DNA from: Alienimonas californiensis
Lineage (GTDB): Bacteria > Planctomycetota > Planctomycetia > Planctomycetales > Planctomycetaceae
Length of the DNA stretch: 64,000 bases
Assembly (NCBI RefSeq): GCF_007743815.1
Contig: NZ_CP036265.1
Coordinates: forward strand, 4,223,823-4,287,822
Direction of reading: 5' to 3'
Of this stretch, positions 322-1,619 are shown one piece after another. Positions within the stretch are counted from its first letter, which is position 1, and each line of letters starts with the position of its first letter. Under the pieces are notes generated by a model, which searched no databases, was not told the origin of the DNA, and saw only the letters and a list, made by a program, of their open reading frames with translations. A program made the translations under genes and the position numbers.

Positions 322-414
322 GCGGCCAGTGCCTCGCTGACGCGGCGGGGCGGGACAATCGGCCCGCGAACGAGTCGGCCCTGGCGCCGACAGTACCGGG
401 ATCCACATTTTTGG

Positions 415-529
415 AAAGGAGGTGGTCCACGATGTCATCCGACAGACTGTCCTACGACAGTAACAGCCAGCGAGGTGGCGACGCCTAGCGGTCCACCGGC
501 GGGTTGTCCGAGACGGGCAGCCACCTCCT
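415..529 (+). promoter_or_regulatory. extended Shine-Dalgarno with downstream anti-Shine-Dalgarno and competing pairing partner
   Basis: Positions 415-428 read AAAGGAGGTGGTCC, almost the complete complement of a 16S rRNA 3' tail and far stronger than any other ribosome binding site noticed here. Positions 521-529 (CCACCTCCT) are perfectly complementary to 417-425. The same segment (520-527) can instead pair with 472-479 (GAGGTGGC), just before the stop codon of the 18-codon ORF. Two mutually exclusive helices are therefore possible: one hides the ribosome binding site, the other uses the 3' end of the small ORF. A further hairpin (GACC-A-GGGA / TCCC-C-GGTC) lies at 547-569. The base pairing is visible in the sequence; a switching or attenuation role is inference. 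Confidence 0.45.
432..488 (+). CDS. 18-residue leader peptide or small protein candidate
   Basis: ATG at 432 opens [18 protein letters not shown] and stops at TAG 486-488. It is supported by the very strong Shine-Dalgarno ending four bases before the ATG, not by length. The peptide is hydrophilic, rich in Ser, Asp, Gly and Arg, has no membrane segment, and matches no family I recognise. It lies between rimK (divergent) and the 3' end of the PfkB kinase gene (convergent), upstream of a strong plus-strand terminator with no other gene in between, so it may be the only coding part of a short transcript. It may act as a leader whose translation controls RNA folding, or as a dummy ribosome-loading site in a small RNA. 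Confidence 0.45.
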
Positions 530-624
530 CGCCGCGGTCTTCCGCAGACCAGGGACGCGATCCCCGGTCGTGAATGAATCTGAGCGTTCACGTTCCCGGC
601 CCCCGTCCCGGCGAGCTGTACCGG

Positions 625-664
625 CCCCGGCCGACTCCGCTTCAGGAGTCGGCCGGGGTTTTTT
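625..664 (+). terminator. strong Rho-independent terminator, plus strand
   Basis: A perfect 14-bp stem (625-638 with 645-658, CCCCGGCCGACTCC and its complement) has a 6-base loop and is followed by six T residues at 659-664. The T-run is on the plus strand, so it ends a rightward transcript, although the only large gene overlapping it, the PfkB kinase gene, runs leftward. The stop codon of that gene (642-644) lies in the loop. This implies a plus-strand transcript from the region upstream. Confidence 0.8.
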
Positions 665-1619
665 CGTGTGCCGCGAGCAACGCCTCCACGGCCGCCCGAT
701 CGGGCAGGGCCTCGCGGTTGCCGAACCGACGCACCTTCAGCGAAGCGACCGCGGCGGCGAACCGCACGGCGGCGGCCGGCGGGCGGCCGTCGAGCACGGC
801 GAACAGCAGTCCGCCGCAAAACGCGTCGCCCGCTCCGCAGGTGTCGACCGCCTCCGCGGGAAAGGCGGGGACGAACCCGCTTTCCACGCCGTCCGGCAGA
901 CGGGCGGCGAACCAGCAACCCTGCGAGCCGTTCGTGACGGTGACGAGCCGCGGGCCTCGTTCAAGCAACGCCCGCACGCCGGCGATCGGATCGCGGGCCT
1001 GCGTCAGGCGGGGAAACGCCGGGACGGGGAGATTCAGCACGTCGGCCAGGGCGATCAGTTCCTCCAGCTTCTCCGAGGCGCCCAGATCGACGCTCACCAG
1101 ACCGCCGGCCGCTTTGACCGCCCGGCAGGCCGCGACCGCCGCGGGGCCCGGCCAGCCGTCGGTGTGCAAAGCATCGGCTCCGTCCACGGCCCGCACGGCG
1201 CGCTCCGCGGTCAGGGAGGAACCGTCCGGCCGCACGGCCGCCAGCGAGCGCCGCCCCGTGCCGGCTTCGACCCAGACGTGGGCGAACCCGCTCCGCGGGG
1301 CGGTGCGGCAGAGGTCGGCGTCGAATTGCAGCCCGGCGGCCGTCAGATTCGCCTCGATCGTCTGGCCGTCCGCGTCGGCCCCCCAGGTTGAGACGAGCGT
1401 GGCGGCCGGGCCGCCGAGCGTCGCCAACTGGGCCAGCGCCGTCGGCGTCGGTCCGCCGACCTGCACAGAGGCTGCCGACGCCGTCGTTTTCTGATCCGGT
1501 CCCGGCAGGCGAGGCAGGACCAACTGGTGATCGACGACCGTCAGCCCCAGCCCGACGACGCGGGCCGCCATGGCCGCAGGCCTGTCGGCCGGCCGGGCGG
1601 CGGTGGGAGATGAGCTCAC
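642..1619 (-). CDS. PfkB-family carbohydrate/nucleoside kinase
   Basis: A 325-residue ribokinase-like sugar kinase. The C-terminal signature DTCGAGDAFCGGLL (about residues 262-275) carries the catalytic Asp and the anion-hole GAGD of the PfkB family. The N-terminal half has the expected VGGPTPTALAQLATLGG substrate/ATP lid region, and VTVTNGSQGCWF is the strand leading into the nucleotide site. It would transfer phosphate from ATP to a sugar or nucleoside hydroxyl in the cytoplasm. The substrate cannot be read from sequence (ribokinase, fructokinase and adenosine kinase members all look alike). The start given is GTG at 1619; an ATG at 1571 (MAARVVGLG) fits the usual family N-terminus better and may be the true start. 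The 3' end overlaps an opposite-strand terminator. Confidence 0.85.
   Translation of the reverse strand: MSSSPTAARPADRPAAMAARVVGLGLTVVDHQLVLPRLPGPDQKTTASAASVQVGGPTPTALAQLATLGGPAATLVSTWGADADGQTIEANLTAAGLQFDADLCRTAPRSGFAHVWVEAGTGRRSLAAVRPDGSSLTAERAVRAVDGADALHTDGWPGPAAVAACRAVKAAGGLVSVDLGASEKLEELIALADVLNLPVPAFPRLTQARDPIAGVRALLERGPRLVTVTNGSQGCWFAARLPDGVESGFVPAFPAEAVDTCGAGDAFCGGLLFAVLDGRPPAAAVRFAAAVASLKVRRFGNREALPDRAAVEALLAAHEKTPADS

Follow-up and report, generated by a model that had tools for sequence, protein, structure and literature searches.

What kind of gene is encoded where an almost perfect Shine-Dalgarno (SD) sequence, a tiny ORF and an intrinsic terminator follow each other on the plus strand between two genes that are both read from the minus strand? 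This question is raised by a locus near the left end of the window, a stretch of 64,000 nt from the Alienimonas californiensis genome. An initial annotation had suggested a short independent transcript that acts either as a translation-responsive switch or as a titrator of ribosomes. All features on which it relied are present in the window sequence: the long SD, the 18-codon ORF, a 9-bp complement of the SD, an alternative partner at the 3' end of the ORF, a hairpin at 547-569 and the terminator. The plus-strand unit spans approximately positions 294-665 and comprises, in 5' to 3' order, a predicted promoter, a structured leader, the near-perfect SD, the mini-ORF, a closed domain around the ORF end and the intrinsic terminator. 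It is flanked on the left by a minus-strand gene for a protein with a RimK N-terminal domain (RimK_N) and on the right by a minus-strand gene for a PfkB carbohydrate kinase (642-1619). As both neighbours are located on the minus strand, a separate plus-strand transcript is implied. The proposal of a short RNA of its own agrees with these signals and with the orientation of the terminator, and the predicted transcript is a stand-alone gene of ~335 nt (328-664, plus strand). The kinase gene ends within the terminator (623-665), so that the two form a convergent pair with an overlap of a few bases. The element is more than a chance arrangement: Its 14-base SD is unique in the genome, the folding z-score of the region 395-670 is -4.9 and it is conserved across the class.

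How far this conservation extends was examined with several searches. A DNA search in 59 relatives yielded matches in 10 genomes, one of them by chance (G039, L008); the true matches keep the SD, the ORF, the hairpin and an aligned 3' part. The sequence-only profile R1 detected the element in 123 of 170 genomes and 47 of the 58 genera of the source's family. R2, a profile that includes structure, recovered it from 274 of the 397 genomes of the class, representing 134 out of 185 genera, nearly always in a single copy. Phylum-wide, R2 matched 65 of 392 sampled genomes, many matches outside the class being weak and the whole set only partly read. A pattern scan of genome contigs returned mainly planctomycetes, and most of the other titles reflect chance occurrences of the pattern. 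One contig of a metagenome-assembled genome, recorded under the title candidate division TA06, contains a complete element of the planctomycete type (L156, 977-1076, 98.5 bits) and may be mislabelled. An Rfam search of the window revealed no family at gathering score. Pxr and CC2171 were rejected as identities, because their sub-threshold matches rest on the terminator and the SD. A literature search retrieved no description of a comparable RNA from planctomycetes and no planctomycete sRNA study; the phylum is not mentioned in a paper about new bacterial RNAs (PMC8632094). As judged from these comparisons, the element is a conserved single-copy small-RNA gene family without an Rfam entry. Both the helices and the ORF are kept in related genomes, the contrary of the missing conservation that the initial annotation had named as an argument against itself. 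Its link to rimK did not hold: The flanking genes vary between genera and lie on either strand, the neighbour is not conserved among relatives and the RimK_N gene is here on the opposite strand. Since the neighbours are not conserved, the element should not be a cis-acting leader, and a role as leader of rimK or of the PfkB kinase gene, both encoded on the other strand, was rejected.

The 5' part of the gene was predicted from a promoter at 294-321 on the plus strand, composed of a -35 box TTGCCG (294-299), a 16-nt spacer and a -10 box CAGAAT (316-321), which places the expected transcription start near 328. A generic sigma-70 scan of the window found no promoter. Upstream of the SD, the motifs CTTGnC and nAnAAT are visible by inspection at matching distance in most relatives. 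The RNA would thus begin with a leader at ~328 and not, as first assumed, at the SD. The leader is predicted to fold into hairpin I (331-351, stem 331-336/346-351) with a conserved ACG in the loop, and helix II (363-366/397-400), which encloses hairpin III (374-379/386-391). Covariation was counted against shuffles. Hairpin I displays compensatory changes in 6/6 pairs with 96% of cells paired among 48 sequences, helix II and hairpin III together in 10/10 pairs. This means that all 16 leader pairs covary, with 126 compensatory cells compared to 30 in shuffles (0/500). The leader helices are the best supported part of the RNA.

Downstream of the leader, the SD AAAGGAGGTGGTCC (segment A, 415-428, plus strand) complements the 16S rRNA 3' tail of relatives. 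It pairs with the tail sequence GGATCACCTCCTTTCT, taken from relatives, over 14 positions including one G-U pair; a pattern search did not recover the 16S tail of the source genome itself. The string AAAGGAGGTGRTCC occurs only once in the 5.48 Mb genome, and most copies in the class have the form AAAGGAGGTG(G/A)TC. In one subgroup, genus g34 (L069, L081, L088, L098), a C is inserted in the SD, yielding AAAGGACGGTGATC, so that the GGAGG core is broken and the remainder kept. The mini-ORF behind the SD extends over 18 codons from ATG432 to TAG488 on the plus strand (432-488). Its last codons contain segment B (GAGGTGGC, 472-479), the partner of segment C beyond the stop codon (520-529). An ORF running through B is present in all 93 distinct copies of the class. 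It comprises 11-18 codons and starts with GTG in 78, TTG in 12 and ATG in 3 of these copies. In at least 88 of the 93, the start codon and B are separated by a distance of the same phase; some of the five off-phase copies may reflect the start-codon choice of the script. Indels within the ORF are mostly multiples of three, and the distance from the stop codon to the next motif occurs in all three phases. The frame kept in relatives speaks in favour of the proposed translation of the ORF.

The domain beyond the ORF end contains two hairpins on the plus strand which compete for the same strand. Hairpin 2:3 (491-508, stem 491-497/502-508, loop GGCG) has two mismatches in the source genome and is supported by 30 compensatory cells among 74 sequences, compared to 8.8 in shuffles (0/500). 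Hairpin 3:4 (504-520, stem 504-508/516-520) displays 15 compensatory cells versus 3.0 in shuffles (0/500). Since both use strand 3, they are mutually exclusive. In three loci (L093, L107, L110), strands 2, 3 and 4 have all changed together. The alternative RNA structures postulated around the ORF end are therefore conserved, as 2:3 and 3:4 both covary. Segment C pairs with B (474-478 with 521-525) and, in the source genome, also with the SD. Inside the class, B:C is nearly invariant, with one both-sided compensatory cell. Because B and C hardly vary there, they say little within the class. Covariation of B:C was taken together with 3:4 in planctomycetes and rests on distant matches that were found with a model already containing those five B:C pairs. 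In only 4 of 14 distant loci did the B:C helix exceed that of every one of 30 shuffles. RNAduplex energies did not clearly separate B:C from the shuffled background in this GC-rich sequence; contiguous helices did so slightly better. Distant planctomycetes keep the ORF-end helix with unrelated sequence. Two further candidates, a helix 1:2 between the last ORF bases and strand 2 and a pseudoknot between the last ORF bases and the GGCG loop, showed no clear covariation and were discarded. Between C and the terminator, single-sequence folding predicts two variable hairpins (547-569 and 570-591, plus strand). The terminator itself (623-665, plus strand) consists of a 16-bp stem (623-660) and a T-run. 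Among 92 relatives, 72 have a terminator downstream of C, compared to 0.4 expected after shuffling.

What could such an RNA do? The comparison reveals a conserved unit in which the ORF is open and in phase, B pairs with C beyond the stop codon and 2:3 competes with 3:4. There is about an even chance that this stand-alone single-copy sRNA switches between two states, depending on translation of the mini-ORF it contains. A 30S subunit would be captured by nearly the whole 16S tail, start at the GUG or AUG codon and read 11-18 codons. The ribosome located at B and the stop codon would open B:C and cover strand 2, which would allow 3:4 to form and C to be released. In the absence of a ribosome, the domain would close. 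As no gene follows in the transcript, the output should be exerted in trans or on the life span of the RNA itself, and the liberated strand or hairpin might bind another RNA or a protein. An effect in trans is conjectural, and any specific target that might be named for the switch would be far less probable than the switch itself. Of the initially proposed translation-responsive switch, the conserved ORF and the alternative structures have stood, and the SD/anti-SD pair as a conserved part of the switch has not.

Four other explanations have to be weighed against a translation-operated switch. The locus might be a small-protein gene, whose product is the peptide of 11-18 residues ending in QRGG and whose RNA structure serves stability or expression. 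The always open ORF would fit, as would the peptide end (S/N)QRGGx(A/V) that recurs across the class. Yet QRGG is encoded by the bases of strand B, and the residues upstream vary freely (SSQ, SPN, KRQ, CSQK). Furthermore, the same bases are read as EVA in actinobacteria (see below), and the peptides of distant planctomycetes have nothing obvious in common. Since its conserved residues coincide with strand B and the two phyla use different frames, the peptide is an unlikely product; it is probably a by-product of translation. The initially suggested SD/anti-SD autoregulation, in which the SD would be masked by C and freed by translation or by B, has a local basis. In the window, segment 521-529 complements AGGAGGTGG at 417-425, and the SD:C helix comprises 10 pairs (417-426 with 520-529) in the predicted minimum-energy fold; CCACC stays complementary to GGTGG of the SD in most of the class. 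In the class alignment, however, SD:C pairing displays no covariation. This neither proves nor refutes it, because the SD strand is fixed by the 16S tail, which also explains the invariance of the SD. Only 14 of the 93 copies have a full anti-SD (CACCTCC downstream). In other planctomycete classes, C reads GTCAGCGGCC, CGCAACCCAC or TGCGCAGCCC and matches the ORF ends GGCCGCTGAC, GTGGGTTGCG and GGGCTGCGCA, and the best downstream partner of the SD is no better than in shuffles. With SD:C not covarying, the full anti-SD rare and the ORF-end helix kept in other classes, the supposed anti-SD appears better explained as a partner of the 3' end of the ORF. An SD:anti-SD switch was therefore rejected as a conserved mechanism, and such autoregulation is highly improbable as the general function; SD:C may still play a local role in the source genome.

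A ribosome trap, also considered in the initial annotation, would hold 30S subunits at the long SD, and the RNA would lower or sense the level of free ribosomes. This is in line with the near-maximal complement to the 16S tail and with the second SD-like strand B within the ORF. In addition, 27 of 92 copies contain GATCACC, a 16S-tail sequence, beyond C, compared to 0.74 expected. In these copies, e.g. L007, L024 and L101, the 16S 3' tail sequence GGATCACC is located in a hairpin after C; it could either be complementary to the SD or mimic the 16S tail. But a strong SD alone needs neither a structured leader nor competing hairpins nor a B:C helix, several distant lineages have a B that does not resemble an SD, and titration would require a very high abundance of the RNA. 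A trap is quite unlikely. Finally, a structured RNA might recruit a protein by its fold, and the ORF would only load ribosomes that protect or remodel the RNA. The leader helices as the best supported part with their conserved loop would be compatible with this, but it would not account for an ORF end within strand B in both phyla, and there is little probability that recruitment is the function. The two-state switch operated by translation of the mini-ORF remains the favoured explanation.

Several known RNAs share individual traits with the element. tmRNA is a structured RNA with a short reading frame and thus bears some likeness to it. It was rejected, since ARAGORN finds no tRNA or tmRNA and there is no tRNA-like domain. 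The trp and his attenuator leader peptides likewise combine a mini-ORF with subsequent mutually exclusive hairpins, the choice between which can depend on the ribosome. Unlike them, the element lacks a co-transcribed downstream gene: The terminator precedes any plus-strand gene, so that no regulated gene lies on the same transcript, and the neighbours vary. The Caulobacter sRNA CC2171 (RF01867) has a consensus that opens with GAAAGGAGGUGAUCCAGUG, a long SD plus GUG, and ends with a terminator. It gives weak matches to several elements, the best of which reaches 26.1 bits compared to a gathering threshold of 75; no B or C strands were seen, and the matched parts are only the SD and the terminator. 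In its alignment to L029 (1434-1610), the RF01867 consensus starts with a near-complete 16S-tail SD and GUG and closes with a terminator. CC2171 may represent another type of RNA that combines an SD with a mini-ORF, this one in alphaproteobacteria.

The nearest known relative appears to be Ms_IGR-5 (RF02471), to which three Streptomyces loci from the pattern scan belong. This sRNA is independently expressed in S. lividans (PMC8079986) and S. avermitilis and was also detected in M. smegmatis (PMC8079986, PMC8780764, PMC10454040). Ribosome protection in vivo is known only from mycobacteria, with footprints on homologues in M. abscessus and M. smegmatis (PMC4974804). So as not to carry over the bias of the pattern scan, one set of 79 actinobacterial genomes was searched with both R2 and the RF02471 model. 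In 13 of them, the best R2 match had E <= 0.05, and 12 of the 13 were on the Ms_IGR-5 locus and strand; G872 is the exception, and G796 among the 12 is the seed. R2 scored 21-31 bits on Ms_IGR-5 loci and 14.5 bits on SD-only matches. In the reverse direction, RF02471 reached its gathering threshold in 0 of 40 planctomycete genomes; a sub-threshold match in G021 (E 0.5) is the element. One planctomycete without R2 match has a putative RF02471 match (L188 in G041, E 8e-4). With R3, a model built from Ms_IGR-5, 15 of 16 matches in 71 sources are the element on the right strand, and the sole match in the window is 414-511 (E 0.024). The R3 scores rest mostly on SD and B, and planctomycete elements are found weakly.

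Like the element, Ms_IGR-5 is stand-alone, usually present in one copy per genome and equipped with the long SD AAAGGAGGTGGTCC. Its ORF of 12 codons ends with GAGGTGG, as does that of the element, the order of parts is the same, and the end of the ORF forms a helix with a strand located ahead of the terminator. This pairing was found in actinobacteria and is less well supported in planctomycetes. B:C of Ms_IGR-5 shows 11 compensatory cells versus 2.6 in shuffles. By contrast, B is located in another frame and the middle part is longer than in planctomycetes. The Rfam model does not include leader hairpins upstream of the SD, nor is B:C drawn in it. In the actinobacterial loci (L202-L231), GGTCC downstream of the SD and GGAC in the ORF can form a hairpin around the start codon that is 91% paired with little covariation. 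B is in phase 0 in 30/30 actinobacteria and in phase 1 in 88/93 planctomycetes: GAGGTGG is read E-V (EVA) in all 30 of the former and R-G-G in the latter. Because it is read in different frames, it looks as if the RNA rather than the peptide is conserved between the phyla. Common descent is likely but not proven, as most of the shared sequence consists of the SD and GAGGTGG, which are both SD-like; the alternative is convergence under the same ribosome.

A planctomycete sRNA gene previously unrecognised can thus be placed beside a known actinobacterial relative. It is a single-copy RNA gene with covariation support and without an Rfam entry in most genomes of a whole bacterial class. The link to an expressed and ribosome-protected sRNA provides Ms_IGR-5 with an architecture, an ORF end that forms a helix with a strand past the stop codon. 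That identical bases are read in different frames suggests that the ORF was selected for being translated and not for its peptide. This would be a clear example for the question raised by ribosome profiling on short ORFs in small RNAs. It is conceivable, if rather doubtful, that Planctomycetes and Actinobacteria share an ancient class of ribosome-gated sRNAs, in which a mini-ORF would be translated not to make its peptide but to bring a ribosome into an RNA domain and thereby open it, and the RNA would report in trans on the capacity of the cell to start and finish translation.
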